From a virus, in the IMG/VR virus record IMGVR_UViG_3300034061_004507, positions 1 through 41,649 of that record: 41,649 nucleotides of DNA, one strand, 5' to 3'. The notes beneath the pieces were generated by a model, which ran no database searches, was not told the origin of the DNA, and was given only the letters and a program-made list of their open reading frames with translations. Positions 14,801 through 41,649 of the stretch are shown one piece after another; position 1 is the stretch's first letter; the number at the start of each line of letters is the position of its first letter. The translations under genes were made by a program, and so were the position numbers.

Positions 14801-15882
14801 ACGGGTCTATATATATTTGTATTATAAAGTTCAACTTCTTTAAAGTTAGCACTTACCGATAATCTATTTTGGTTAATTACTTGTAACGATTGTGTTGATT
14901 GATCATAAACATTAAGTTCACTTCCTGGCGTACTTAAAAGAAAGTTATTATCATCATTAATGTTATAAATGACACCATTTGGTGCGATTAGTTTAAATTT
15001 ATTTTTAATTGTATTATCAAAAAATTCAACAAAACCAACATTAGAAACATTATTATTACTTACCCAAAAAGGATCTAACCCTCTTTCAGGGTAAAGTCCA
15101 AATCCTGTCGTATTAATAACCTCATCATTATTTATGTCATATAAGGTACTACCATAATCTTGTCCATTAGGACTATAAACGTTTTTAGGTTTTAACTCAA
15201 TTTCTTTACTATTACCAACCTGTTCTAATTCATTATTAAGTGTGTCGCTAATATCATATACATCATTTTTATTAGCTTTTTGTACATCATTATTTATACT
15301 ATATCTTGTTCTACCATAATCAGGTCGACCAGTAGGGTTATAAATGTTTTTAGGTTTTAATTCTATTTCTTTACTATTACCAACTTGTTCTAATTCGTTA
15401 TTAAAAGTATCTGTAATATCATAGACATCATTTTTATTCGCCTTTTGTTGATTGTTATTAATGTCGTATCTTGTATTACCGTAATTAAAACCATTTATTT
15501 TTGGTACATATATGTTTTCAACGTATAATAAAGTTTCTTGGTAATCTCCGTTTTTTTCTAATTTAGAACCTATAGTTGTACTAAGACCATAAGGACCTTC
15601 ATTAGAATTTGTGTTTTTATCAACATTAATATCCACAGAAGTACCAAAATCAGAACTACCAGGTCCGTATTGATTTTTAGTTATTAATATTCTTTCTTGT
15701 TTATCACCAATATCTTCAACATTTGGGGAATCAATAACACTATAATCAACTAAAACTATTTCATTTGTTGCGGGTTTATCATTAAAACCAGTCTCGCCAT
15801 TTATTCTATATGGTGGCAGGTTAATTGATAAAAGTTTTTTTCTAAAATTTTCAGTAGAATCAAATGATAGTGGACTATCCAT
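8824..15882 (-). CDS. giant multidomain baseplate protein with N-terminal repeats and OmpA-like domain (2352 aa)
   Basis: Product of 2352 aa. Residues about 54-697 hold roughly ten divergent repeats with the core N-x-Y-x-P...YG-x-TRY-x-INND. Residues about 1211-1299 (GPNGGRIMWFPPYDVTFDES, then FLGRTEPIYTYSNTKRTGKL and IVVDHP) resemble tail-tube-initiator baseplate proteins of the gp48/gp54 type. Residues about 1544-1694 look like an OmpA C-terminal domain: KVLGSASANYYVDSFNKSLS, ARRVSAFVKYM and, after an insert, ACRKVSIVDI. A Pro/Lys/Glu-rich linker follows (about 1690-1735), then another conserved block (VCVLRVGDFWHTKIVIDSLS, NPEGIGLQPMIAEVSINFNF and ALSFNFYANTEMYDERA, about 1834-1922) and a helical C terminus. 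It probably combines tube initiation, wedge contacts and peptidoglycan binding in one chain. Domain calls are by pattern only. A TATTTATT element lies 16 bp upstream. Confidence 0.7.
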   Translation of the reverse strand: MDSPLSFDSTENFRKKLLSINLPPYRINGETGFNDKPATNEIVLVDYSVIDSPNVEDIGDKQERILITKNQYGPGSSDFGTSVDINVDKNTNSNEGPYGLSTTIGSKLEKNGDYQETLLYVENIYVPKINGFNYGNTRYDINNNQQKANKNDVYDITDTFNNELEQVGNSKEIELKPKNIYNPTGRPDYGRTRYSINNDVQKANKNDVYDISDTLNNELEQVGNSKEIELKPKNVYSPNGQDYGSTLYDINNDEVINTTGFGLYPERGLDPFWVSNNNVSNVGFVEFFDNTIKNKFKLIAPNGVIYNINDDNNFLLSTPGSELNVYDQSTQSLQVINQNRLSVSANFKEVELYNTNIYRPVSSGFNIQFYGDTKYSINNDLFNSISTGFGEYNQRFNDPNWVLGNYVSTKGNQKEGEAYQINIWKPLGNGNNFYGNTRYDLNFDFVNILTQDASGTYLETTANDEWIVSFSNALTNLANNPRILLYNSNQYRPDSSFGNVKWSINDDVQGLRESGLPDNNGGTYGLEDTEPSLLEIKGKNKEIEIYGINYYKPQTNTQPSAPYGTTRYTALNDIPLTNNLNPNPGEYNLSDTTFSRIQIPLENKATQAYEINLYKPQNDGSSYGPYRYDITDDEQIEVLSNPGANNKGEYGPNQTSANNSNLEINAETELIDAYNKNKYVPENNYGNPELVNVNDLPIKLLGQPYANSDGGTRVFVPSIYTPYAILIQNDPKGSDGSVSQDSTLMGIATDRLKKEFAYRVTAELLQQTIGRINVLDTSFNQPDGLQSTQLSVKPNTDPFDVLGIATGNIPLIERNWAISVPDLIIGKTLNFAAKLAGLYSPYSFIPGEYFDYPNERFLTQVTDNPVAALFKPVFSKLYDITSFNIDTASELFLSNTGSGTQKELFTQLKYNLYVPDYKLNSFRDPNIFAPDPKYYVGKRKSFIKSLIKKDELPKAKFEKRKREPTPVYGDGIWARLYEGDLYDELTKPTIYQGEIKGAFGVESISDFDNGDIQGGFTWAGNRNETKPQIGKKVGPNGREFKTSSAGASSNTFQNRLNNTLSGKNTIKNKFTEGSILEATQKLVDVANDIGNDEKRLRHVGTAINQISKVFNDGYTEMTKGSRIVKWRTKNSVDKSTVKGGIAEGLEYCRVWTKDDPYAFIGALQKTDGITKSGRKFNNSVLDNTYNLNIGPMKNTAGGDSTNIFPGGAKKYMLSLENLAWRTSNRPGYTVEDLALCERGPNGGRIMWFPPYDVTFDESVSTDWNPTTFLGRTEPIYTYSNTKRTGKLSFKIVVDHPCILDKLVSEELAKEDESRFTAILNSFFAGCLKYDPYEVASQFTTFTLSDIFEVIEKTGDPQVIKELVPEVITPPNTVKEEIVEESNEKIEEPVNTEELGKSDFNEFINTFPVMYYANDKPSTYDVSSSTTGSENEAATSFDIYYEQYAESAAVASSSTPQITQPTTLQRTPRPWLQTPPLNMEEWHIAEAIRRSDGENKYSKYPPASNRKNRVLVPISSVSRSDPDFFKTYIDSTPNSIKEMFSYIRTKKTKLDEFLTKTLEWLSQGNSMSFKVLGSASANYYVDSFNKSLSARRVSAFVKYMEKFSVVSSNGKKLNEFFKYDHTNGKADKNFPLTFEPTFAGFSPPITTQDQFSGIDCSKPFPLTSNGKNTGEATHSVNAIACRKVSIVDIKLVEKSKPTPEPKVDETEKDKPDPKNTNTSDKPEPPKEPKYIEKTVYPKPTYETVVKQNLKGKLLKKLVCECDYFEMLQNDSPTVFNGLKEQLKYFHPAFHAITPEGLNKRLVFLQQCMRPGDTVPTVVETGPGTTTLLYKDAFNSAFGAPPVCVLRVGDFWHTKIVIDSLSLTYPKDGQWDINPEGIGLQPMIAEVSINFNFIGGHGLKEPISQLQNALSFNFYANTEMYDERAEQTEIVASNFDQEFIENIKNEIGLNDRNERQNENDYGVPFGNIVKRDVDIPNNTIKGTIDYKEKVNQLAKISREYLESTYNELRLIYNQGLIGLNSIFTDSRKYTSGVYGTNTLEVIGLSTKIEKNLQDLQTLAISDVENDNCPLLKGMNLEDFTNLNKLSIKSQLKRDIKERINYYKFTLLESNSRLQQKELEFVKIVDQINFIYSGKDGYKRENGDITIFDISGGTPSVNTFPDAYTELKGSVDDLYLDMDQFNTNLKIKNIIPQNTLKFNDNFTFETYILEGQQQLNVGPENRFFILFGGTILSSPLEYVNKFLQDSIDNAGALDRIKDSKKEAWKTFLLNNANSLETKYKKSKEKTDKFFTEFEETDLYKEIIKDTYLKPFDISRVLEFFKQNPTNDTDAENWRKITSDQSVGGNEFNLKKKFTY
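13790..15720. repeat. about ten diverged coding repeats (NxYxP...YGxTRYxINND)
   Basis: Protein-level repeats at residues about 54-697 of the 2352-aa baseplate protein. Examples are NIYVPKINGFNYGNTRYDIN, NIYNPTGRPDYGRTRYSINN, NVYSPNGQDYGSTLYDINND, INLYKPQNDGSSYGPYRYDI and NQYRPDSSFGNVKWSINDD. Spacing varies from about 55 to 80 residues. Confidence 0.75.
15181..15475. repeat. recent 165-bp direct duplication inside the baseplate gene
   Basis: A stretch starting at 15181 (gtttttaggttttaa) is repeated from 15346 with few mismatches over about 105-130 bp. The offset of 165 bp equals 55 codons. Both copies encode NKNDVYDI(T/S)DT and NNELEQVGNSKEIELKPKN, the two most similar of the N-terminal repeats. 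Confidence 0.85.
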
Positions 15883-27788: not shown

Positions 27789-28499
27789 ATGAATATACTA
27801 AAAAAAACAATTTCAATTATTGAAGAAAAAATAAATGATGACTCTCCATCTAAAGAAAAATTAATTTCAGAAATAAAAAGAGTTAGTATTGAAAAATTAC
27901 CATATGAGTATAATTCTTTTGGTTCTTTTATTGATAGTGAAACTATGAATGTTCATTACAATAAACATTATAAAGGGTATGTTGAAAAATTAAATTTAGA
28001 ATTAGATAAAATAAAAGGTAAAGATTTAGATTTAGAACAAATAATTAAAAAAATTTCTAATTTTAATAAAAAAGTAAAAAACAACGGGGGTGGAGCATTT
28101 AACCATGCGTTATTTTGGAAAATGTTATCCCCAAAAAAACAAAAAATATTAGATCCGATTTTAGGAAAAATTAATAAAGAATTTGGTTCGTTTAATGAAT
28201 TTAAAGAAAAATTTGAAGAAGAGGCCAAAAATAGATTTGGTTCAGGTTGGGTTTGGTTAATTTTAACTGATTCTAATAAATTAAAAATTGTCACAACATC
28301 AAATCAAGACAATCCTCTTATGGATACGGAAAAAGAAAGAGGGTACCCACTTTTAGGTTTAGACCTTTGGGAACACGCTTATTATTTAAAATATCAAAAT
28401 CAAAGGGACAAATATATTTCTAATTTTTGGAAAGTTGTTAATTGGGGGTTTGTAAATGATTTATATACTACACAACTAAAAAGAAAAGATTCTAAATAA
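27789..28499 (+). CDS. Fe/Mn superoxide dismutase (Mn-type)
   Basis: Product of 236 aa. Metal ligands are at His56 (MNVHYNKHYKGYV), His106 (GGGAFNHALFWKML), Asp192 and His196 (GLDLWEHAYYLKYQNQR). The gating residues His60 and Tyr64 are present, and FGSGWVWLI and NFWKVVNWG are the family signatures. Gln173 in SNQDNPLM together with GGGAFNH is the Mn-type pattern (E. coli SodA). Residues 1-36 are an extra helical N terminus not in E. coli SodA. It converts superoxide to O2 and H2O2, presumably in the infected cell's cytoplasm, since no signal peptide is seen. It sits 11 bp after the helicase stop and 29 bp before the neck gene. All key residues are present, so it should be active. Confidence 0.93.
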   Translation: MNILKKTISIIEEKINDDSPSKEKLISEIKRVSIEKLPYEYNSFGSFIDSETMNVHYNKHYKGYVEKLNLELDKIKGKDLDLEQIIKKISNFNKKVKNNGGGAFNHALFWKMLSPKKQKILDPILGKINKEFGSFNEFKEKFEEEAKNRFGSGWVWLILTDSNKLKIVTTSNQDNPLMDTEKERGYPLLGLDLWEHAYYLKYQNQRDKYISNFWKVVNWGFVNDLYTTQLKRKDSK

Positions 28500-29651: not shown

Positions 29652-29984
29652 ATGGCGGTATTTAAAACATCACAAATAAAAAAAACAATTAACGGTAAAG
29701 AAGTTTTTGTTTCAGAGAGTGTTATTATAAATAGTATTTCATATAGCACAAATGGTGAAAACTATATTGTAGTAAAAGATGTTAATAACTGTTTAATTTT
29801 TTTAAATTCAGATACAAGCGATCATGTTATAATAAAATCATTAACAAACGTTTTAGTTAAATCAAACGAACTAATAGATGAGGAATTTAATGAAGTAGAA
29901 CTAAATAAAGGTGCCTGTGTCGAATTTAAAAAAATTGGTGATTATTGGTACATACTATCTTCAGACGGGTTGAAGAACTCTTAG
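29652..29984 (+). CDS. small hypothetical protein (110 aa)
   Basis: Product of 110 aa, 4 bp after the neck gene. Beta-rich pattern: VFKTSQIKKTINGKEVFVSE, then IINSISYSTNGENYIVVKDV and FLNSDTSDHVIIKSLTNVLV, with VEFKKIGDYWYILSSDG near the end. A small virion or head-decoration beta domain is likely; no family recognised. Its stop overlaps that of the convergent DNA polymerase C-terminal frame (TAG at 29982, TAA at 29981-29983 on the other strand), and a hairpin (CTTAGT / ACTAAG, 29980-29996) spans the two stops. Confidence 0.55.
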   Translation: MAVFKTSQIKKTINGKEVFVSESVIINSISYSTNGENYIVVKDVNNCLIFLNSDTSDHVIIKSLTNVLVKSNELIDEEFNEVELNKGACVEFKKIGDYWYILSSDGLKNS

Positions 29985-31003
29985 TCAAAAACTAAGGACA
30001 TTAAATCCCCATCTTCATCGAATTCATAAATATCATCATCATCTACTTCATTTTTTAACTTACTTTCTAACATAATTCTTCTATTGTTTTCAACTCTTTC
30101 ACTATCCACTAAATTAATTGTGTCATCAATATACATGTAGTAAGGGTCAATTCCAACACTTTTCCAAAACGTAACTTCCATATCAGAAAGAGTTAATACC
30201 TCATCTAACTTATCTTGGTCTTTTTCTTTCATAGGAAACCCTCTACCCATAATAGTTTGTGATTTTGTAAATATTGGCATATCTTTAGGATTCTCAATTA
30301 AAATATCTTTTCTAATTTCAGGACTATAAACAACTAACAGAGGTTCAATTCTTTTATTAAATGCTGCCAAATATCTTGGTACATTATATTCACCTAATAA
30401 ATCAGGATTTAGTTCAATTTCTTTTTCATCGATTAAATAACAATTTAAAATAACTTCACTTTTTGATAACATTTCAAGTGGTACAGCACCATAACCATCC
30501 ATGTAGTCTTGTATTTGTTTTTTAGTCATCTTGGTTGTTTTCTTTTGAACGTCTCCATGTGATTTTTTTTCACCGTTATTAACGTAATAGATTGTATCAC
30601 CTAAACCAGGATTTTTACCAGCATTCATCAAAAGTTCCATATGTGCTTGACGAGACATTAAACTTCCTGCCTTTGTTGTTTTTGTGATGTGAACTTTATA
30701 ATCCTCTATTGATTGTTTAACACGAGCCTTGTTTGCAATCTTTGCTAATGGGATTTGTTTATTAAATATTTTATCTACATACTCATAGTAAAAATCCAAA
30801 AACTCGGCACCCTTACCATCAAGTAACATTCTTAGTCCTTTATCTAAAAATTCTGCAACATATGTTTGAAGTTTTTTAGATTTAATTGTATTACCTGTTA
30901 ATTTAACTTTACCTTTATCTGTTAGAAGTGCGTAGTTTTTACGTGCCACGTTAATTGTTGCAGGCCATACACCATCAATATCAAGACCCATTTCGTTTCT
31001 CAT
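29981..31003 (-). CDS. 43: family B DNA polymerase, C-terminal fragment (second frame)
   Basis: Product of 340 aa from the ATG at 31003. It begins after the catalytic motif C of the neighbouring frame and holds the rest of the palm, the thumb and the C-terminal tail: EMGLDIDGVWPATINVARKN (like the KKRYAL part of T4 gp43), LRMLLDGKGAEFLDFYYEYV (thumb helix) and an acidic end DEDGDLMSLVFD. The frame continues upstream of the ATG to at least 31036 (EADVAEYNDLFM), which would join directly to the upstream frame if one G were skipped. Thus the ATG at 31003 may not be the true start. No Shine-Dalgarno sequence. It converges on the plus-strand gene ending at 29984. Confidence 0.8.
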   Translation of the reverse strand: MRNEMGLDIDGVWPATINVARKNYALLTDKGKVKLTGNTIKSKKLQTYVAEFLDKGLRMLLDGKGAEFLDFYYEYVDKIFNKQIPLAKIANKARVKQSIEDYKVHITKTTKAGSLMSRQAHMELLMNAGKNPGLGDTIYYVNNGEKKSHGDVQKKTTKMTKKQIQDYMDGYGAVPLEMLSKSEVILNCYLIDEKEIELNPDLLGEYNVPRYLAAFNKRIEPLLVVYSPEIRKDILIENPKDMPIFTKSQTIMGRGFPMKEKDQDKLDEVLTLSDMEVTFWKSVGIDPYYMYIDDTINLVDSERVENNRRIMLESKLKNEVDDDDIYEFDEDGDLMSLVFD

Positions 31004-31028
31004 AAATAAGTCATTGTATTCTGCAACA

Positions 31029-32861
31029 TCAGCTTCCTTCTTCTACTAAACCATTAAGACCTTTACCTACATAAGTGTAGTTATCTCTATCTTCAGGAGT
31101 TTCAAAGTTTACACCATCCGTATCCATTACAAGTGGAGTGTAACCTTTACTCATGAAGTACATAATCATCTGTCGTAAATACTGCCTTCCGGTACACGTA
31201 ATCTGTTCTCCCATGTCCATATCACCCCAAGGGAAGACGTGGGGTGCAGATAATGATCCAAAGAAGGCATTGATAAAGATTTTGATTGGTAATTGTTTCC
31301 TGTCGTATGAGACAGAAAGTTTCGGATCCGTTTTTTTAAATTCACTTGCTAAATTTTTATATTTTATACGGGTATCTCTAAAGTATTTTAACATACTTTT
31401 CATCGCACCCGTTACGTCACATTTTGGAAATACATCATGAACCAACTGAATAGAAGGATAAAGAGAAGAGTAGTCAAGTTTTAATACTTTTCTTGAGTAC
31501 CCTACTTGAAGTAATCTTGACAAACCTCCTGTAAATTTTCTTTTTGGTAACTTTTTAGGAATTGCTAAATTATGTTTATAGGACCACGCACACATAATCA
31601 TTTTCCATAAGGTAGCGGTACCCATAGTTGAAAGTCTCTCGTATGTTGTTGGTACAAGTTTAGAAAGTAAAAAGTTTGCTTGATTAAACTGTTCATCAAC
31701 AACCATAGTTTCATAAAGGTCATCATCAAGATAATCTTCAATTATTTTTGAACCTGTAATTTTTTTATATACGTCATCTCTTCTTGAACATATTTCATCT
31801 ATTTTAGAATCAAGTCCTACTTTTTTGTAGTTACCGTTTTCTTTATTCATCCAATATTCTTCATTGTCAAAATAAATTTTACCGATTTTATCACCTTCTA
31901 CATAAACACGATTTTCTTTTTCTGCTTCAATAAATTTGGTAATGTACTTCAAAGACCAACTCTTAATGTCAGAGTTAATAGCCTGTGCTCTACGAACTGC
32001 GTGCGCAATATCAATAATATTGTAACCCCACATTTGTGTTTGAACGTAAGGTTCCATTTCATTCGCTAACTTCAAAATCCCGTCTTTTTGTTTTAATGAA
32101 TAATCAGGATTTAAAGTTTTAGCAATTTTTTTAATATTTAATTTTAAAATCTCTGCACGTTTTAAAATAAAAGGAAAGTCAAAGAATGCTGAGTTGTATC
32201 CACCAACAAGAGAAGGTTTTAGTTCGTCTATTGTTTTAAAAAACTCAATAATCATTTGTCTTTCTTCATCTTCATTTTGAGCGGATAATAATTTTAGAAA
32301 ACCACGATTGTCTTTCATCCCTATCAAGAATATTTTACTTGTCTTGGGATCTAAACCTGTGGTCTCGATATCGAATACAAACCTGTGTATTTCATCATAT
32401 TCATCAAACCCTTTAAATAGTCTTTTACTTTTTTGAATTAAGTATTGTTCGACAGGGGATAGTATTGTAATTGCGTCTGAATTATCTCTACCCCACGGAT
32501 CGAGACCTCCACCTTTAAAAAAGTTTACAAGATTTGAATATGATTTTGTTGTTTTAACCAAGAACGTTAACCCGTTCTTCAATCTTTCGTCACCGTGATC
32601 TTCTAATTTTTCTATGATAATGCCGTTTTCAGACATTGCCTTTTTTTGTAAGTCTTTATTCCCTTTATAAAAGTTTTTACTTCTAAGGTCACCAACCCAA
32701 GCAAACGGAATAAAAGTATCCATTCTCAAAAGTTTTCCTTTGATTGGGTCTTGTATTACTTTAAATATTTTATCTGATTTGTAATCGTATTCTAATGCTA
32801 CGATATATTTTTCTTCGTCTTCGCCGTGTAAAAAGCGTTCAATTTCTTCTTGTGGAACCAT
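31029..32861 (-). CDS. 43: family B DNA polymerase, N-terminal and palm part (first frame)
   Basis: Product of 610 aa. 3'-5' exonuclease motif I is FVFDIETTGLDP (Asp164, Glu166), exonuclease motif II is VGGYNSAFFDFPF, polymerase motif A LKLDYSSLYPSIQ (about 460), motif B KIFINAFFGSLS (about 525) and motif C VMDTDGVNFE (about 579). It stops at TGA 31031-31029 with the sequence GKGLNGLVEEGS, just after the catalytic Asp pair. A normal family B polymerase cannot stop here, so the frame must be continued by the downstream fragment. With a +1 shift the join reads GLVEE-EADVAEYNDLF and gives a protein of about 960 aa (T4 gp43 is 898). It replicates the phage genome with gp32. A TATTTATT element lies 60 bp upstream. 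Confidence 0.9.
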   Translation of the reverse strand: MVPQEEIERFLHGEDEEKYIVALEYDYKSDKIFKVIQDPIKGKLLRMDTFIPFAWVGDLRSKNFYKGNKDLQKKAMSENGIIIEKLEDHGDERLKNGLTFLVKTTKSYSNLVNFFKGGGLDPWGRDNSDAITILSPVEQYLIQKSKRLFKGFDEYDEIHRFVFDIETTGLDPKTSKIFLIGMKDNRGFLKLLSAQNEDEERQMIIEFFKTIDELKPSLVGGYNSAFFDFPFILKRAEILKLNIKKIAKTLNPDYSLKQKDGILKLANEMEPYVQTQMWGYNIIDIAHAVRRAQAINSDIKSWSLKYITKFIEAEKENRVYVEGDKIGKIYFDNEEYWMNKENGNYKKVGLDSKIDEICSRRDDVYKKITGSKIIEDYLDDDLYETMVVDEQFNQANFLLSKLVPTTYERLSTMGTATLWKMIMCAWSYKHNLAIPKKLPKRKFTGGLSRLLQVGYSRKVLKLDYSSLYPSIQLVHDVFPKCDVTGAMKSMLKYFRDTRIKYKNLASEFKKTDPKLSVSYDRKQLPIKIFINAFFGSLSAPHVFPWGDMDMGEQITCTGRQYLRQMIMYFMSKGYTPLVMDTDGVNFETPEDRDNYTYVGKGLNGLVEEGS

Positions 32862-33337: not shown

Positions 33338-33973
33338 TTACTGTTGGAAATATTTTTCAATTCGTTTACTTAATCTAACTCTTGGATCATTAATATCTCT
33401 TTTTAATACCGAATACGGTAATAAGAACCCAAAACTTAAAAACACCCTCCTTGAATTAAATTCATTTGTCCAATGTTTATATAATGAAGCCTCAAAAGAA
33501 TATAAATCAGTTTCTTGTATCTTTACCGTGTGTTTATCTAAAAATAAATCATAATCCTCAGATAAAACACTTATATTACACTTATAGTTAACATAACCAT
33601 CAATTGATGCGTCATAGTGAGGATTTATTTTTCCGCCTGTATTCATATCTACCGCCTGTAAAAAAACGTTTTCTTTTGGAAAATTAAATTCTTTAGATAT
33701 TTTATCTATTATATTATGTATAAAATCAGGTAATGGATCTTTAGATACATCCGATATTGATTGGAATTTTGTAATATAATTGGTTAAAGGATTATTTGAT
33801 ATGTCAAACATATAAGAGTTACCGTTTAGTTCTTTAGATAATTCGGTTAGGTGATGATTGCTATCATTACCAATATGTTTAACTGAATCTATCCATGTTA
33901 ATATTTTATTTACCTCATCTTTTGTGATGAATTTTTTTTTTAACTTAAAAGGGTTTAATTCCGTACTTTCCAA
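33338..33973 (-). CDS. 2-oxoglutarate/Fe(II)-dependent oxygenase-like protein
   Basis: Product of 211 aa. The double-stranded beta-helix metal triad is visible: HxD as His119-Tyr-Asp121 (GGKINPHYDASIDGYVNYKC), distal His167 (EASLYKHWTNEF) and the 2-oxoglutarate-binding Arg at 175-176 (SRRVFLSFGF). Spacing fits small phage 2OG oxygenases, common in T4-like phages. It could hydroxylate a protein side chain or a nucleotide; substrate is not visible. Its start overlaps the end of the 88-aa gene by 29 bp. No other in-frame ATG occurs before residue 55, so the M at 33973 is kept. It forms an operon with the two small genes upstream. Confidence 0.8.
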   Translation of the reverse strand: MESTELNPFKLKKKFITKDEVNKILTWIDSVKHIGNDSNHHLTELSKELNGNSYMFDISNNPLTNYITKFQSISDVSKDPLPDFIHNIIDKISKEFNFPKENVFLQAVDMNTGGKINPHYDASIDGYVNYKCNISVLSEDYDLFLDKHTVKIQETDLYSFEASLYKHWTNEFNSRRVFLSFGFLLPYSVLKRDINDPRVRLSKRIEKYFQQ

Positions 33974-34211
33974 TTTTCTTTAGGTTATGTTTTACCAAAA
34001 ATTCTTTTGGGTTCATTGCCTCAATTATTGTTAATTCCGCAGAATCAATCATCTGTTTGGCTTTTTCATCGGTAACCGCCAATACACACAATTTATGCGT
34101 TGCGGGTAACTCTCCTGTTGGTGATAAATCTATTTTTAAGATATTATCATTTTTCATTTTTTCTCTTGCTTGTGAAACTTTAGATTCTTCACATAATATA
34201 CAAATTCTCAT
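33945..34211 (-). CDS. small conserved-looking hypothetical protein (88 aa)
   Basis: Product of 88 aa: MRICILCEESKVSQAREKMK, then LPATHKLCVLAVTDEKAKQM and EAMNPKEFLVKHNLKKIG. An alpha/beta pattern with hydrophobic strand RICILC, a CxxC-like pair split (Cys4 and Cys7), and HKLCVLAVT. No function assigned; it resembles small proteins often found in T4-like phage genomes. Its ATG overlaps the TGA of the 95-aa gene (ATGA), and its end overlaps the oxygenase start by 29 bp, so all three are translationally linked. Confidence 0.6.
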   Translation of the reverse strand: MRICILCEESKVSQAREKMKNDNILKIDLSPTGELPATHKLCVLAVTDEKAKQMIDSAELTIIEAMNPKEFLVKHNLKKIGKYGIKPF

Positions 34212-34495
34212 ATCACTTGTTTTTTAATAATTTTAGCAAATTTATTCGTATTTCTTATTGCTTGAATTTCTTGAAGTCTAATTTGAATATCTTCCTCAGT
34301 TAATTTTAAATTTCTTTTATCACCCAATCTTGTTTTTAAATCGTTTTCTGAGTAATTGTTTAAAAGTTTACCTTTTTCTTCATTATATTTAGACGGAGTC
34401 AAATAAGCCGCGTCTTTATTATTTTCTAACCAAGTATCTTCATCTGCAGATACTAAAAAGGTTTTATCTGATTTTTTTTGAATTTGTTTTATCAT
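34208..34495 (-). CDS. small hypothetical protein (95 aa)
   Basis: Product of 95 aa, helical and charged: MIKQIQKKSDKTFLVSADED, then WLENNKDAAYLTPSKYNEEK and EEDIQIRLQEIQAIRNTNKF. No family recognised. Its ATG overlaps the TGA of the upstream 281-aa structural gene (ATGA) and its stop overlaps the next ATG, indicating coupled translation. It may be a chaperone or attachment factor for the fibre genes, but that is a guess from position. Confidence 0.55.
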   Translation of the reverse strand: MIKQIQKKSDKTFLVSADEDTWLENNKDAAYLTPSKYNEEKGKLLNNYSENDLKTRLGDKRNLKLTEEDIQIRLQEIQAIRNTNKFAKIIKKQVI

Positions 34496-35337
34496 GATGG
34501 TAATGTATATAAAATGTTTATTTCTACTGGTGTGTAGTATAATTCTCCTGAAACATAATCTCCAAGTCCAAAATCAAAAACAGTAAGAAGAACAGAGTCG
34601 TCAATTTCTGCGTCTGTTACAACTTGTGATTGAAAAATTAAATTGGGGTTTATTACACTTAACCCACCATTTTGATTTATGAAAGTTTGTGTTAATTCTC
34701 TAGGAAATGAATTTTCAGAAGGTCCTCCATCGTTTTGTGCAAAATATATACCGTCAATTGGTTCAGACCAACTTACATTAAATCCTAATGTGTTTTCTAA
34801 TTCTGTAACAACAAAATCGCCAGCGGAATTTAATTCGGATCCATTTGTCCATTCGGTAGGGATGAATCCTGTTGCAATAAAAATACAACCGTTTTGATTT
34901 ATAGTACCACTTGTAACATCCGCAATATTTGAAAAATCGTCTCCGAGTACACTTGTTATTTGATAAGTTGCGTTATTATCCCCACCAACTAGTGTAACTT
35001 CATCATCAACTAAATAATCTGATCCTGAATTACTAACACTTACGTTAACCACTACTCCTGATGAAAATTCTACATCTAATTGTAAACCTGAACCGTTACC
35101 TCCTGTTGTGGTATAAGTAGTAACACCATCAGGATAATTTGTTCCATCATTAGTGATGTTACCATTATCAACATATCCCCCAGCATAATTAATTATCTCA
35201 TACGATTCTCCAATAATAAATTTATTATCAAAATCTAATAATTCTGTACCACTCAACGGAGGTGTTTGTGTTAACAACGCCTTATAGGTTTTGAATGGAT
35301 ATTGATTTGTTACGTATTTAACTGGTGCGCTTGCCAT
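34492..35337 (-). CDS. fibre/virion structural protein (281 aa)
   Basis: Product of 281 aa with Gly-, Thr- and Asn-rich beta structure. Residues about 60-130 (VDNGNITNDGTNYPDGVTTY, then VSNSGSDYLVDDEVTLVGGD) form a repeating small beta domain seen in phage fibre proteins (G-x-x-Y-x-x-G/D-D-x-V-T-L). The N terminus MASAPVKYVTNQYPFKTYKA starts like the downstream 145-aa protein (MASA). C-terminal part: NPNLIFQSQVVTDAEIDDSV. A short fibre or accessory attached to the large nonapeptide-repeat protein is likely. Function inferred from composition and neighbours. Confidence 0.55.
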   Translation of the reverse strand: MASAPVKYVTNQYPFKTYKALLTQTPPLSGTELLDFDNKFIIGESYEIINYAGGYVDNGNITNDGTNYPDGVTTYTTTGGNGSGLQLDVEFSSGVVVNVSVSNSGSDYLVDDEVTLVGGDNNATYQITSVLGDDFSNIADVTSGTINQNGCIFIATGFIPTEWTNGSELNSAGDFVVTELENTLGFNVSWSEPIDGIYFAQNDGGPSENSFPRELTQTFINQNGGLSVINPNLIFQSQVVTDAEIDDSVLLTVFDFGLGDYVSGELYYTPVEINILYTLPS

Positions 35338-35361: not shown

Positions 35362-35799
35362 TTATCTATCACTAACAACAGATTCTTCACTACTTGAGGT
35401 TCTTTGTGAAATTATATTTGACCAATTTTGTGCAGATTGTTCCTTTTTTTGTCCAAAATTAGATTTTTCATAAAATTTAGTTATTTCGGTTGAAAAACTT
35501 GGTTCTCCACCGCCTTCTATGGTTACTTTAGTGGTTGCCTTTGCCTCTATAGGGTTTTTTTTATCCCCATTAAATACATTTATTGATAAATCAAACCCCA
35601 CTGAAGGTGGAATTATTAGATAAGTACCAATCATTTGTCTATTTTCAATCGAAACACCATCTGGAAAACTACCACTTAAAGTGTATTGGTAAAATTTGTT
35701 GGCGATAAAATCTTTTGATATCACTTTATCTAAATCATACTCTAACTTTTCTTTGGAGTTTGATGATACTATTTCTGTATTAAAATTTGCACTTGCCAT
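35362..35799 (-). CDS. structural/fibre accessory protein (145 aa)
   Basis: Product of 145 aa: MASANFNTEIVSSNSKEKLE, YDLDKVISKDFIANKFYQYT, LSGSFPDGVSIENRQMIGTY and a beta-rich centre IEAKATTKVTIEGGGEPSFS, ending in a Ser-rich tail. No family recognised. It lies 25 bp after the 1502-aa fibre gene and 24 bp before the 281-aa structural gene, all on the minus strand, suggesting a fibre operon in which this protein may aid fibre folding or attachment. The poly-Ser/Glu C terminus (SSSEESVVSDR) is likely disordered. Confidence 0.5.
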   Translation of the reverse strand: MASANFNTEIVSSNSKEKLEYDLDKVISKDFIANKFYQYTLSGSFPDGVSIENRQMIGTYLIIPPSVGFDLSINVFNGDKKNPIEAKATTKVTIEGGGEPSFSTEITKFYEKSNFGQKKEQSAQNWSNIISQRTSSSEESVVSDR

Positions 35800-35824: not shown

Positions 35825-38800
35825 TTATACGTCTATATCAACTATAGTTAATACATCCGTTGAGTCATAGAAAGACAATCTAGGTGTACCATCTTGTCTG
35901 TCAAAAATAATTTTTGTCATATTTGCATCATACACATATGTGGCAGATGTAAAGTCATAATTAAATACTTTTGTAGATAAGATTTGATTTTTAGTGAAAG
36001 CGCTAGTGATTATATTACCACCAGCAGTTTGACTACCGTCATCTCCAAAGTAATCACCAATATTATTATTGTTAAATCCAGATGAAATAACATTTTGTGT
36101 ACCAACACCAGCATTACCAAAGAAATTACCGATTTTGTTGTATTGGAAATCAGTATCAATTTCGTTAAATGCTGAATAATTACCCAAATTATTAGATATA
36201 AAGTTACCACCAATAGCACTTGGGGATCCGCCTATACCTGAGTTACCAACAAATAAATTACCTATTGTATTATCCAATGTGTTTTGACCAAATACGTTAA
36301 ACCAAAAGTCGTCACCAATTTTGTTATTTGTGAAGTTTAAATCAATAGCGTTGAATATAAAATTATCACCAATAACATTAAACTGAAATCCGTCATTTAT
36401 GATGTTACCACCATCTCCGTTTGAACCGCCACCAACTGAAGGGTAGTTTGTATCATTACCAAAGAAATTACCAATTTTATTGTATTTGAAATCATTGAAT
36501 ATTACGTTCTGTACCGGTGAACCAGGACCTGAACTATCATTACCAAAGTAATTACCTATTTCATTACCTTCAAAACCATCAACTACTGTATTTCCAACAA
36601 AGAAATTTTCAATATCATTACCTATGAAACCATTACCAATAGAATTTAGAGTAAAATAATTTTCAATATCATTACCAGCAAAGGCAATACCTATATTATT
36701 ATTTTCAAAATTATTTTCAATATCATTACCTGTAAATGTATTACCTATAGTATTATTTTTAAAATCATTTTCAATTGCATTACCTATAAAGTCGTTAGAT
36801 ATGTTATTTTGGAAAAAATTATTACCTATTACATTATTATTTGAATCTTTACCTATTGTATTATTATTAAAAGCTTTAGCAATAATATTATAATCAAAAT
36901 TGTTACCGATAATATTAGTATTAAACCCATTACCTAATGTATTATTTCTAAAATCCTTACCGATATTGTTATCACTAAAATTATTACCTATTACATTATT
37001 TCTTAAACCATTCCCAATAATGTTATTAGAAGATAAATCATTTATTTTGTTATTTCTAGAGGTATTTCCAATGGAATTATTACTAAACTCATTACCGATA
37101 TTATTTGATACGAATTCATCACCTATACTGTTAGTAACGAAGTAATTACCAATAGAATTTCCAGTAAAAATATTACCTATAGAATTTCCACTAAAAACAT
37201 TTTCAATATCATTACCAGCAAAGGCAATACCTATATTATTATTACCAAAATAATTTCCTATTTCATTACCTTCAAAACCATCTAATATTGTATTTCCAAT
37301 AAAGTAATTTTTAATTGAGTTATCTTCAAAATTATCACTAACGGTATTACCTGAGAAAAAATTCCCGATATTATTATTGTAAAAGTATTCACCAATAGTG
37401 TTATCCAGAAAATTATCGTTTATAATATTACCTTGTAGTTCTCCCAATCCGAAACCAAAATCGTTACCTATTGTGTTATTACTAAATAATGCACCAATAT
37501 TGTTAGAGGCAAAATTATCACCAATAGTGTTTCCAAAAACGACACCTTTAAATGTGTTTCCAAAAACACTACCCAAAAAGTCATTATCAGAAATAAATGG
37601 ACCGAAGGTATTACCATTACAACTTCCACTAATTTGATTTCCTCCAAAACCCCAATCTGTTCTATTTTCACTAAAATCCTGATACGTTATATTACCTTTA
37701 AATTCGTTGAAAATTTGGTTATCATTAAAATTACCGTATATTGTATTGTTTTCAAATTGTTCACCGATTCTATTGTTAAATGTTTCTCCACTTATTGAAT
37801 TATTATTAAATCCGAAACCAATTTCATTCTTATAAAAATCTTGGGTTATTATGTTATTACTAAAATTTAAACCAATTTGATTATCTTCAAAATTATCACC
37901 AACGGTGTTATTTTTAAAATCATTACCAATAACATTATTATACGCAAATTGACCAATAATGTTATTTTCAAAATTATCATTTATGATATTACCATATGGG
38001 TCACCACCACCATAACCAAAATCACTACCAATTATGTTATTTCTAAAATTATTACCAATGGTATTATATGCGAATCTTTCACCATTATTTTGTTGTGTGT
38101 AAATTGAGTTCCATTCAGTATCACCAGGACCAGGCCATTGATTATTAAATGGTGGTGTGTCAGTTATTGTGTTATATAATCCACCTTGACTATCTCTTGT
38201 TAATTCTACAACACCAGGAACGATAATATCCACTTCTGAACCATAATTAGTTTTAGTAAACACAACGGTTGAACCTGTGGTATTACCATTTGAATCCAGT
38301 TCTTGTCTTTCATATTGGAATCCACCACCATTTCCACCTTGTGTCCATTGTGTGAATTTAATTCTAAAATATTGTTGTGTTGATATAACTCTCATCACAA
38401 GTTCCTTACCTAAAATATAACTACCAACATTATTACTGAGTGAAATTCTTAATGTGTTATATGTTCTTGTCGATACCGTTGATAAGTCGTTCCACCCAAA
38501 TAAATCATCGTTTGATGGTCTATTATTTTCAAAATAAGTACCAACTTTATTAGTGTTAAATTCATTACTAATTACATTATTATAAAAATAATAATCAGTT
38601 GTGTTTTGATAAAAATCATCATCTATAGTATTGTTATTAAACCCATTACCAATATTATTTAATCTAAAATCACTACCAGTTGTGTTATTGTTAAATCCGT
38701 TTAAAATGGTATTACCCTGAAATTCACCATTAATTTCATTCTCTTGAAAGTTTGTACCAATTTGGTTATTTTGAAAATCTTGTCTAATAACATTTTCATT

Positions 38801-40333
38801 AAAATTATTACGAATATAATTTCTATAGAATTCAAAATTACCATAGTTAGCAAAATCACCGATTACATTATCATTAAAGTTGTCCAATATTTGATTTTTA
38901 TAAAAATCAGAATAAATCGTATTATTATTAAATTCATTAGCAATTAGGTTATCATAAAATTGTGAAAATATTTCGTTATTGTTAAATTCGTTACCAATTA
39001 GGTTATCATAAAAATTCCCATCAACAATATTATTATTAAAACCGTTACCAATTTTGTTATCCTCAAAGTCATCGTATATGGTGTTATTATTAAATCCAAC
39101 ACCTATTTGGTTATCAACGAAATCAATATTGTTAAATATTTTATTGTTGTTGAAGTTATCACCTATCACGTTGTCATTAAAATCATCACAGATAATTAGA
39201 TTATCTCGGAAATTAGCAGCTATTTGATTATCTGTGAAATCCTCGTCATTGTAAATTGTATTATTCTCAAACTGGTCTCCTATAATATTATGCTCAACAT
39301 CACTCTTAAATGTGTTATTCCTAAAATTGTTACCTATTCGGTTTCCAATTACATCCTCACCGAAGACATTATTTGGTAATAAAAAAGTATTCTGGCTCCA
39401 ATCTATAAATGATGCGACATCACCAACGTAATTTGAAATTATAGTTTCATCATCAAATAAAAACGTAGGGTGTTCCGTATAATCAATTGATATATTATTT
39501 TGTTTATAGGTAAGACCGTCTCTTTGTGCTAAATAAAAACTAGAACCAGATAAAACAGCTGGTATAGTTAATCCACTTACAACCATACTTGTGTCAGCCG
39601 ATATTGATACAATTTCAAAGAAAATCTCACTTGAATTAGGAATTGCTATGTGATCACCAGTATTATAATTTGAAAATACTGTTCCTGTACCTATTACTTC
39701 ACCCGTATTTTGAATTAGTTCAATCGTTCCTTTGGCGATATCTTTTTCTTCATAATAGTAGTTATCATACCTTCTAAATAAAACATCTCTATGGTCATAG
39801 TCAGTTCGGTTGTTAAATTCATCAACCCTTTCGGTAATTCTACCAAATGCAACATTATTTGTAACTTCAGTAGCACTAAATGTCCAGTCATATCTTATTT
39901 TATCATTTGGGTATGTTGGTTGATAAGCATCACTTGAAATCGTATTAACTGATGTTGAGAGAACCATTAAAGGTTCAACAGGTCCTTGTTTGTAATTAGA
40001 TGTGATACCTGTATTAATAATAGGATTACCATTATAATCATAATCAGGTTGATCATAACATGTTCTAAAGTCGGTTATTATGTAGTAAGATCCTGTAGTT
40101 AATCCACTTCCATCAATCAGGTCTTGAATTTCTGAATATGTTACTTCAGTGGCACCAGTAAAGGATCCACCAAATTCTTCAAGAGAACCATCCGGATTCT
40201 TTTTTTCAAATGACCCACTATTTAAATCAACACCAACGTAATAAGTGTCAGTGGTTCCACTTAAATTATTGAAATCTTCTCCTGTAACGTAAATTGTGGT
40301 TTTACCATTATTTTGTTGTATTATTCTTCCCAT
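35825..40333 (-). CDS. large fibre with 9-residue (5+4) solenoid repeats (1502 aa)
   Basis: Product of 1502 aa. Residues 1-320 form a non-repeat N-terminal domain (FGRITERVDEFNNRTDYDHR, then DVLFRRYDNYYYEEKDIAKG), as in other phage fibre proteins. Residues about 321-600 and about 752-1447 consist of a repeat whose core is N-x-I-G-x-x-F-x-N: in TIYDDFEDNKIGNGFNNNIV and on, Phe recurs every 9 residues and Ile/Val sits 4-5 residues away. Residues about 601-752 break the repeat with a beta insert (TYNTLRISLSNNVGSYILGK). The end (SATYVYDANMTKIIFDRQDG) caps the array. The regular I-F spacing and Asn stacks suggest a beta-solenoid rod. A TATTTATA element lies 12 bp upstream. Its role as tail fibre or particle decoration is inferred from composition and neighbours. 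Confidence 0.75.
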   Translation of the reverse strand: MGRIIQQNNGKTTIYVTGEDFNNLSGTTDTYYVGVDLNSGSFEKKNPDGSLEEFGGSFTGATEVTYSEIQDLIDGSGLTTGSYYIITDFRTCYDQPDYDYNGNPIINTGITSNYKQGPVEPLMVLSTSVNTISSDAYQPTYPNDKIRYDWTFSATEVTNNVAFGRITERVDEFNNRTDYDHRDVLFRRYDNYYYEEKDIAKGTIELIQNTGEVIGTGTVFSNYNTGDHIAIPNSSEIFFEIVSISADTSMVVSGLTIPAVLSGSSFYLAQRDGLTYKQNNISIDYTEHPTFLFDDETIISNYVGDVASFIDWSQNTFLLPNNVFGEDVIGNRIGNNFRNNTFKSDVEHNIIGDQFENNTIYNDEDFTDNQIAANFRDNLIICDDFNDNVIGDNFNNNKIFNNIDFVDNQIGVGFNNNTIYDDFEDNKIGNGFNNNIVDGNFYDNLIGNEFNNNEIFSQFYDNLIANEFNNNTIYSDFYKNQILDNFNDNVIGDFANYGNFEFYRNYIRNNFNENVIRQDFQNNQIGTNFQENEINGEFQGNTILNGFNNNTTGSDFRLNNIGNGFNNNTIDDDFYQNTTDYYFYNNVISNEFNTNKVGTYFENNRPSNDDLFGWNDLSTVSTRTYNTLRISLSNNVGSYILGKELVMRVISTQQYFRIKFTQWTQGGNGGGFQYERQELDSNGNTTGSTVVFTKTNYGSEVDIIVPGVVELTRDSQGGLYNTITDTPPFNNQWPGPGDTEWNSIYTQQNNGERFAYNTIGNNFRNNIIGSDFGYGGGDPYGNIINDNFENNIIGQFAYNNVIGNDFKNNTVGDNFEDNQIGLNFSNNIITQDFYKNEIGFGFNNNSISGETFNNRIGEQFENNTIYGNFNDNQIFNEFKGNITYQDFSENRTDWGFGGNQISGSCNGNTFGPFISDNDFLGSVFGNTFKGVVFGNTIGDNFASNNIGALFSNNTIGNDFGFGLGELQGNIINDNFLDNTIGEYFYNNNIGNFFSGNTVSDNFEDNSIKNYFIGNTILDGFEGNEIGNYFGNNNIGIAFAGNDIENVFSGNSIGNIFTGNSIGNYFVTNSIGDEFVSNNIGNEFSNNSIGNTSRNNKINDLSSNNIIGNGLRNNVIGNNFSDNNIGKDFRNNTLGNGFNTNIIGNNFDYNIIAKAFNNNTIGKDSNNNVIGNNFFQNNISNDFIGNAIENDFKNNTIGNTFTGNDIENNFENNNIGIAFAGNDIENYFTLNSIGNGFIGNDIENFFVGNTVVDGFEGNEIGNYFGNDSSGPGSPVQNVIFNDFKYNKIGNFFGNDTNYPSVGGGSNGDGGNIINDGFQFNVIGDNFIFNAIDLNFTNNKIGDDFWFNVFGQNTLDNTIGNLFVGNSGIGGSPSAIGGNFISNNLGNYSAFNEIDTDFQYNKIGNFFGNAGVGTQNVISSGFNNNNIGDYFGDDGSQTAGGNIITSAFTKNQILSTKVFNYDFTSATYVYDANMTKIIFDRQDGTPRLSFYDSTDVLTIVDIDV
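35990..39375. repeat. tandem 27-bp coding repeats of the fibre gene
   Basis: Degenerate 27-bp units (9 codons) over most of the stretch, with an insert at about 38075-38530. A 43-bp identical copy occurs at 36661-36703 and 37201-37243, exactly 540 bp (20 units) apart; a second pair (cctatttcattaccttcaaaaccatc) at about 36555 and 37257 is 702 bp (26 units) apart. This is evidence of in-frame unit shuffling or duplication. Confidence 0.85.
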
Positions 40334-40386: not shown

Positions 40387-41649
40387 TTATAAACTAAAAT
40401 TTCTTACCGCTCTAACAGGTAAACTATTCAGTTTACTTTGAAATGCAATTTGACCTGTAAAAAAGTTAACATACATCGCCCCTGGAGGATTAAGAATAGG
40501 TATATTAAATGTTGCAGTTGCTTCTGTGCTTGACCAATAACCGACATTCTGCCCCATAACATTATTCAAATAAAGTAAATTGGTTCCACCATTACTCTGT
40601 AATGTTTTATTTACATTAAATCTATTTTGTATAAGTAAATAAAGTTCATCTATTGCTGGTAAATACCAATCATTAACAGAACCGACACTGTAATTTAAAC
40701 AAAGTTGTGCTGCACTGTTGGGGGATTGAGTTGCAATTATATTGGTGTTAGACAAACCGTTCCAACTACTAGTTGCCGCATTTAATACATTAACATCACT
40801 CCAAACAGAGTTTGTTAAATCACTCATTGAAACAACTAAATAGTTTTCATTTACACCATCTAAATATCTATGAAATATTACTCCTCCTTCTGATGGAACA
40901 TATTGTCCTATTTCGTATGTATATTGATTACTACTAATACCACTTAAATTTGATCCATCACCGTAAAAAGTACCGCCAGATATTGTTGTTGCACTTAAAG
41001 TGCCGTTTACCGTTAACCCACTAACCGAATCAATATACGCATTAAAAATGGTGTTTGTGTTATCGGTTAATGTTATTGTGTTTGTTAAATTATCATAGGT
41101 GACTCCCGTTAAAAAAGTGTTTGAATCTCCGGTTAAAGAACTAATATTAACAGTATATGCTGAAGGTGATACGTTAGTATCAAAATAAATAATACCATTA
41201 TTGTAAGATGCGCCTGTTGTAAAAACGTCAGTACTTCCGGTGAAAAAACCATTGACCGTTACATCTGTACCATTACTTGTTGATAAAGTTAATGTTCCTC
41301 CTGAATATGTTCCTGAAGTTATTAAATCATTAAATGTTGGTAAATCTACTAAAACTGTTTGTCCTGATCCACTTAAAGTGCCTCCACTTAAAACTAAATC
41401 ACCATTCAAAATAACTAACTGTGAATTTTCATTTAACAATAATGTACCTAAAACAACTAAATCTCCGTATATGAAACTTTGTGAATATGAACCAATTTCA
41501 ACAGTACTTCCTGAAGGTATATACCACCTACTGTCAGCATTAATATCAATCAAAGCATTAGCAATTGTACCACCTGTAGGGTTTGTGAGTGTAAGAGTAT
41601 TTGCGGAAAAAGTCATTCCTGACACACCAATAGATTGTAGATAATATAA
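40387..41649 (-). CDS. adhesin with C-terminal DUF1566/C-lectin-like domain (5' end beyond window)
   Basis: At least 420 codons. The frame is open to the right window edge, so the N terminus is probably outside; the in-window GTG at 41625 (SGMTFSANTL) is a fallback start. The first half is Ser/Thr/Gly-rich beta repeats (GTLLLNENSQLVILNGDLVL, then GTYSGGTLTLSTSNGTDVTV). Residues from about 235 of the GTG-started form (GQYVPSEGGVIFHRYLDGVN, then NDWYLPAIDELYLLIQNRFN, GYWSSTEATATFN, and LPVRAVRNFSL) match the DUF1566/Lcl pattern of the C-type-lectin fold, used by some phage receptor-binding and DGR-variable proteins. It probably binds the host surface. No Shine-Dalgarno or clear start is visible. 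Confidence 0.75.
   Translation of the reverse strand, partial: LYYLQSIGVSGMTFSANTLTLTNPTGGTIANALIDINADSRWYIPSGSTVEIGSYSQSFIYGDLVVLGTLLLNENSQLVILNGDLVLSGGTLSGSGQTVLVDLPTFNDLITSGTYSGGTLTLSTSNGTDVTVNGFFTGSTDVFTTGASYNNGIIYFDTNVSPSAYTVNISSLTGDSNTFLTGVTYDNLTNTITLTDNTNTIFNAYIDSVSGLTVNGTLSATTISGGTFYGDGSNLSGISSNQYTYEIGQYVPSEGGVIFHRYLDGVNENYLVVSMSDLTNSVWSDVNVLNAATSSWNGLSNTNIIATQSPNSAAQLCLNYSVGSVNDWYLPAIDELYLLIQNRFNVNKTLQSNGGTNLLYLNNVMGQNVGYWSSTEATATFNIPILNPPGAMYVNFFTGQIAFQSKLNSLPVRAVRNFSL

Follow-up and report, generated by a model that had tools for sequence, protein, structure and literature searches.

A phage nonapeptide-repeat protein with a predicted four-sided beta-solenoid, proposed as the shaft of a virion adhesin

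A nonapeptide array in a 1502-residue protein

The IMG/VR contig IMGVR_UViG_3300034061_004507 (41,649 bases, positions 1 to 41,649; hereafter the window) carries on its minus strand a gene with an ATG start (35825..40333) for a protein of 1502 amino acids (aa), which contains long tandem arrays of the nonapeptide N-x-I-G-x-x-F-x-N and is proposed to be a tail-fibre shaft or virion adhesin. The protein opens with a variable N-terminal extension (residues 1–59; 40157..40333, minus strand, as for all features of this gene), whose start is poorly conserved in the alignment of relatives and which possibly serves as an attachment part. This is followed by a conserved N-terminal domain (residues 60–192; 39758..40156; YYxITDFxTCYDQPD ... 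GRITERxDEFNNRTDYDHR), also found in gp99 of phage PAU and in megaphage LR756504, and by a small predicted beta domain (residues 200–272; 39518..39736) with strands in the AlphaFold2 model. The repeats form two solenoid blocks. Block 1 (residues 331–603; 38525..39343) holds 24 good units together with degenerate ones, amounting to about 15 coils, while block 2 (residues 757–1448; 35990..38065), in which the number of repeats varies among relatives, holds 59 good units, degenerate units and corner loops. The blocks are separated by an insert domain of 145 residues (606–750; 38084..38518; GKELxM ... FTQWTQGGNGGGFQYxR), and the protein ends in a C-terminal cap (residues 1456–1502; 35828..35968; RLSYYDxSDVLNITNI type). 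The repeat blocks are acidic, with 42 Asp and Glu against 12 Lys and Arg residues in block 1.

The repeat array was confirmed as real and well delimited. The protein contains 83 copies of the motif N.[IVLTFP]...F.. (mean 9.6, maximum 19, in 1000 residue shuffles), and 70 pairs of Phe residues lie nine apart where 13.3 are expected (shuffle maximum 24). Additionally, the autocorrelation of Phe is 0.49, 0.42, 0.34 and 0.29 at lags of 9, 18, 27 and 36 residues and negative at lag 5, and that of Ile/Val and of Asn peaks at the same four lags. A profile derived from the relatives likewise recovers 83 good units (shuffle mean 4.5, maximum 11), the gaps between which are occupied by about 15 degenerate units and short loops. 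A first-pass annotation of the window had described Phe recurring every nine residues in roughly 100 units, with one insert splitting the array and a distinct N-terminal part; the periodicity is borne out by these statistics, the unit count is fair (83 good and about 15 degenerate), and both the insert, at about 606–750, and the N-terminal part are present. That annotation had overlooked the C-terminal cap at 1456–1502, an 18-residue super-repeat (see below), and short corner loops (GGGDPYG, GLGELQG and others), which are placed after the Phe strand and ahead of the next Asn.

Coil length and predicted fold

The number of residues per coil was assessed by two approaches independent of structure prediction, namely unit-lag identity and a census of insertions and deletions (indels). 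If one turn comprises two units, these lie on different faces, and a correlation of residues at even lags is expected. Identity at the variable positions 2, 4, 5, 6 and 8 was 0.133, 0.223, 0.144, 0.181, 0.144 and 0.151 at lags of one to six units, giving an even-minus-odd difference of 0.045 as compared to -0.0006 +/- 0.0050 when the order of units was shuffled (about 9 standard deviations). For the window protein alone the difference was 0.079, a value matched by none of 2000 shuffles. In the indel census among relatives, for which the 30 flanking residues on each side had to align at 67% identity or more, the clean repeat-only indels measured 18 (seven cases), 36 (three), 54 (two) and 234 (one) residues; thus, 13 distinct indels fell at 0 modulo 18 and none at 9 modulo 18, an odd number of units never being gained or lost. 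The remaining indels (22, 43, 76, 77, 187 and 421 aa) contain loops or larger blocks and are uninformative with respect to coil length. The excess of even-lag identity, together with clean indels that are all multiples of 18, shows on sequence grounds that the true coil is two nonapeptides, or 18 residues, and that rod length most likely evolves through the gain or loss of whole coils.

These measurements also bear on the possibility of an intertwined trimeric beta-prism in place of a single-chain solenoid. The T4 gp5 needle is such a prism, built from octapeptide VxGxxxxx units, and phage fibres and spikes are often trimeric; furthermore, short hydrophobic-Gly repeats would fit folds of this kind, and our AlphaFold2 models are of the monomer only. 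In a trimeric prism, however, the chain regains a given face after three units, which predicts a super-period of 27 residues. The window protein has a unit of nine residues and a super-period of two units (identity 0.223 at lag 2 versus 0.144 at lag 3), no indel of 27 residues was found, and the Ile and Phe positions already lie in repeated strands of the monomer models, so that a prism is considered unlikely.

Two AlphaFold2 runs were performed on the monomer, using alignments composed of family members alone. Residues 1–770 gave a mean pLDDT of 77 and a pTM of 0.69, with values of about 80–96 over most of 370–600, and residues 735–1502 gave a mean pLDDT of 65 and a pTM of 0.50, with good stretches at 80–92. 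Both yielded the regular solenoid for which the first-pass annotation had proposed structure prediction as a check. Within the modelled unit, strand frequency is 0.88–1.00 at positions 2–3, 0.81–0.96 at positions 7–8 and 0.00–0.10 at positions 9 and 1, placing Ile and Phe within strands and Asn-Asn and Gly-x at corners, in agreement with the 5+4 register and the Ile/Phe core proposed earlier. With two strands in each unit and two units to a coil, the rod would have four sides, whose lengths alternate between about four and about five residues.

A nonapeptide with two units per 18-residue, predicted right-handed turn recalls the calcium-binding beta-roll of RTX proteins, which has two sheets. 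Unit and coil length agree with such a roll, and the RTX-like antifreeze protein 3p4g and CyaA RTX are among the weak Foldseek matches. Conversely, the RTX motif GGxG(N/D)DxUx, strict or relaxed, has no match in the window protein, GGxGxD occurs in 0 copies and no Pfam RTX match was obtained; the models display two strands per unit rather than one, and two core positions in each unit are taken by the bulky residues Phe and Ile. An RTX-like roll is thus regarded as very unlikely.

The top VIA-align matches of both models are right-handed beta-helices. For the first model (1–770) these include the TpsA adhesin EtpA (Z 20.0, rmsd 2.9 over 311 residues), several tailspikes and the pentapeptide-repeat protein EfsQnr (Z 13.5, rmsd 3.4 over 178 residues), and for the second (735–1502) the designed solenoids 4yei (Z 16.8) and 5dqa (Z 16.7, rmsd 1.9 over 159 residues), the Sf6 tailspike and QnrB1 (Z 15.0, rmsd 2.8 over 168 residues); across the predicted models several tailspikes reach Z 13–17. 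Nothing was returned by VIA-align for the N-terminal 290 residues, which says little given that solenoid matches fill the list. When the first model is laid over the pentapeptide protein 6fls, about 179 of its residues align with 200 of the latter, as would be expected if 18-residue coils were stacked on 20-residue coils. A right-handed beta-helix is consequently well supported by the models as the general fold, while homology to the matched proteins is not supported. The notion of a wholly new rod fold, put forward as a possibility in the first-pass annotation, is not supported by this comparison, as the predicted rod can be superposed on solenoids of known structure from pentapeptide-repeat proteins, designed proteins and tailspikes.

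The predicted proximity to QnrB1 and EfsQnr, together with the acidic repeat blocks, could point to a divergent pentapeptide-repeat protein acting inside the cell as a DNA mimic or as an inhibitor of topoisomerase or defence, and not as a virion part. Pentapeptide-repeat proteins contain at least eight contiguous pentapeptides, four per coil (PMC8145042). In the window protein the register is nine and not five, no five-residue period and no tandem pair of A(D/N)LXX motifs were detected, single motifs are no more frequent than in shuffles, the coil quantum is 18 rather than 20 residues, and neither Pfam nor any other family search returned a pentapeptide-repeat match, in line with the earlier statement that the array is not a pentapeptide repeat. 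In addition, its size, insert and cap, the adhesin-like neighbours of its gene and the domain that it has in common with PAU gp99 are better suited to a virion protein, and an intracellular role of this type is judged highly improbable.

Similarly, the abundance of tailspike depolymerases and PL6 lyases among the best structural matches raises the question of an enzymatic tailspike, in which the solenoid or the insert would cleave host polysaccharide. The resemblance consists solely of the general right-handed beta-helix at 4–15% identity, no catalytic family was matched in Pfam, PHROGs or other profile searches, and the repeat is variable outside its core positions, which makes this role quite unlikely.

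Relatives, shared domain and gene neighbourhood

Two scans of IMG/VR returned 142 and 161 matching stretches, comprising 56 distinct relatives from the first scan and, with the second, 81 distinct proteins in all, taken from the loci kept. These range from 331 to 1409 residues on contigs of up to 436 kb, and in each of the 81 an Asn-x-hydrophobic step of nine residues recurs at least three times in tandem. The insert signature is present in 29 of the 81 (in two copies in L004 and in L013) and that of the C-terminal cap in 46. The family is nearly restricted to viral contigs: there was one match in 84,980 species genomes and one in 395 genomes of the phylum of that match, both being the same 8.5-kb contig (L084), binned with a Chitinophagaceae genome. 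As this contig carries lysozyme- and holin-like genes (roles read by eye), it is probably phage itself. Of 50,697 phage records, two alone were matched, megaphage LR756504 and phage PAU, in both cases through the N-terminal domain.

No significant match to the window protein was found in Pfam, PHROGs, NCBIfam or PDB sequences, nor to a 36-residue repeat profile searched against the same four collections, for which the best PDB result consisted of short TapA matches (E 0.08). BLAST of phage genomes with the consensus repeat, a search limited by the low-complexity filter, gave no match, and the insert (606–750) and the 200–272 domain, each queried alone (the latter by tblastn), were likewise without match among phage genomes. 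Matches of relatives to Pfam and PHROG entries at E 0.05–0.5 (MerR, holin and others) were set aside as chance. In open-licence papers no description of a nonapeptide solenoid in phages was found, the nonapeptide and beta-roll literature being mainly concerned with RTX. The repeat thus apparently defines a family, present on roughly a hundred or more contigs of uncultured phages, that is undescribed in the databases searched.

The N-terminal domain links this family to an isolated phage. It matches Sphingobacterium phage PAU gp99 by tblastn (33% identity, E 1e-8), and the relationship is also borne out by the alignment of relatives. In BFVD the first model matches H9NBX6 best (1048 aa; 130 residues, probability 1.00, 30% identity), which, judging by that length, is presumably PAU gp99. 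The gp99 gene lies nine genes after the PAU tail sheath gene. Like the window protein, gp99 has the N-terminal domain followed by further sequence; unlike it, gp99 has a long extra N-terminal part and no regular nonapeptide array. Further BFVD matches of the first model are to phage tail-tip and tail-fibre proteins (short, probability 1.00, E 0.05 to 0.08), and the 200–272 domain is a possible source of these, the matched model range not being reported. As the host of PAU is a Sphingobacterium (PMC3738902), this phage and L084 weakly indicate Bacteroidota hosts for the family.

The LR756504 protein (L086) and L084 resemble the window protein in combining the N-terminal domain with nine-residue Asn-rich repeats. 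In L086 the Phe position is small (Ser, Gly or Cys) with Ile mostly kept (NTIGDFSTS, NTLGASNSN), and in L084 Phe occupies the Ile position with a small residue or Val as its partner (NTFGDSNTS). Read by eye in these three proteins, the core seems to be filled by complementary pairs, as one would expect if a single architecture were packed in different ways. Two tandem genes of L084 (1132–3897) have a common N-terminal domain and differing Asn-rich repeats; the start of the second resembles a Sec signal peptide (MKKIVLLVMVFITNYLGAQS), which is odd for a virion protein.

The window encodes a contractile tail, with sheath, tube and baseplate hub genes. Directly upstream of the solenoid gene lies a gene with an Lcl_C C-terminal domain (40387..41649, minus strand), the product of which is a probable adhesin of the same module. 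Downstream, a gene for 145 aa (35362..35799, minus strand) has homologues directly downstream of the fibre gene in 6 relatives, and a gene for 281 aa (34492..35337, minus strand), with weak PHROG matches to virion structural proteins, has homologues near the fibre gene in 11. Neighbours in the relatives carry YadA_head, Peptidase_S74, Peptidase_G2 or DUF285 domains, so that the solenoid gene sits among tail-fibre or adhesin genes. One such neighbour, a 1231-aa protein with many DUF285 repeats (L007, 2219–5911; Mycoplasma-type family, E 1.9e-168), is perhaps another repeat adhesin in the same position, and in some phages (L020, L035, L048) a second family member or repeat-bearing open reading frame (ORF) stands beside the first. 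An 88-aa ORF downstream of the fibre gene (33945–34211, minus strand) is about 90–95% identical in distant relatives, far above the conservation of surrounding genes.

Elsewhere in the window, an Fe/Mn superoxide dismutase gene (27789–28499, plus strand; Pfam Sod_Fe_N and Sod_Fe_C) lies between an SNF2-like helicase gene and a conserved gene that matches a head-tail-adaptor PHROG. A family B DNA polymerase is present as two ORFs of 610 and 340 aa (29981–32861, minus strand), while L011, L017 and L022 (85–95% identical) have a single ORF of 966 aa; the split could be genuine or stem from an error in the sequence. Two giant ORFs of 2172 and 2352 aa (1976–8494 and 8824–15882, minus strand), downstream of the tail genes, are without PHROG match.

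A proposed virion adhesin among known repeat systems

The neighbour domains, the Lcl_C gene upstream, the PAU gp99 match and the tail-fibre-like BFVD matches all argue for a virion adhesin, and the window protein is probably the shaft of a long one (a tail fibre or whisker) on a contractile-tailed phage, formed by an 18-residue four-sided solenoid; we infer the term fibre from the gene context and from the domain in common with PAU. The N-terminal region would tie the protein to the particle, and the conserved N-terminal domain would start a right-handed, four-sided and presumably single-chain beta-solenoid, each coil of which comprises two nonapeptides arranged as 4+5+4+5 residues. In each unit, x2-I3 and F7-x8 would form short strands with Ile and Phe stacking in the core, while G4-x5 and N9-N1 would form corners, such that Asn ladders run along the edges. 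With the rise that is usual for beta-helices, 4.8 Angstrom per coil (compare PMC13123833), a rod of about 50 coils would measure roughly 24 nm. Its course would be interrupted by a single globular insert and a number of corner loops, which could bear receptor-binding surfaces, before it ends in the cap; insert, loops and cap are candidate contact surfaces. Rod length would shift in evolution as whole coils are gained or lost.

Several points weigh against this proposal. The fold stands on predicted models and the place in the virion on inference; AlphaFold2 is able to impose regular solenoids on repeats, and the block 2 model is of lower confidence. Foldseek against the PDB gave no match with E below 0.001 for either model, and the structural kinship consequently rests on VIA-align re-alignment, which is blind to folds that Foldseek missed. 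Phage fibres are usually trimers and the models here are monomeric. Some of the 13 clean indels are common to several pairs, making independent events fewer, probably seven to nine, and PAU gp99 has the shared domain without the regular repeat.

It is an evenly balanced question whether these proteins constitute an undescribed beta-solenoid class, in which a right-handed four-sided rod with sides of four and five residues, 18 per coil, and complementary core pairs (Ile with Phe, Ile with a small residue, Phe with a small residue) provides a length-tunable fibre shaft to a large group of phages that are uncultured and in part jumbo. What is new to us is the alternation of four and five residues and the evolution by whole coils, whereas a role in phage fibres is familiar. 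Regular beta-solenoids are few, and the array adds to them a repeat family that is apparently undescribed, that follows a simple rule of sequence (a coil of 18 residues in which core and corner positions are clear) and whose varying rod length amounts to a natural experiment. The analysis also provides an anatomy for a fibre family unnamed in the databases searched, and the role of its N-terminal domain could be tested in the isolated phage PAU.

With regard to architecture, the window protein is best called, on the basis of the models, an 18-residue (4+5+4+5) variant of the quadrilateral beta-helix, that is, a variant geometry of a known architecture. The pentapeptide-repeat proteins (PF00805; QnrB1, EfsQnr) and the designed 5dqa are, like the predicted rod, right-handed and four-sided with short strands and tight corners, and in both the pentapeptide-repeat proteins and the rod a hydrophobic residue lies mid-side. 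The window protein differs from the pentapeptide-repeat proteins in having predicted sides of four and five residues in turn, 18 rather than 20 residues per coil and the unit N-x-I-G-x-x-F-x-N in place of A(D/N)LXX, as well as in being much longer and phage-borne. With the RTX beta-roll it has in common a nine-residue tandem unit and two units per 18-residue turn, predicted to be right-handed, while lacking GGxGxD and having two predicted strands per unit and a large aromatic/aliphatic core. Finally, the pectin-lyase-type tailspikes (Sf6, HK620, CBA120 TSP3) and EtpA are right-handed parallel beta-helices, as predicted for the window protein, with which they likely have an adhesin role in common; their coils are longer or less regular, whereas that of the window protein is short and nearly exact.

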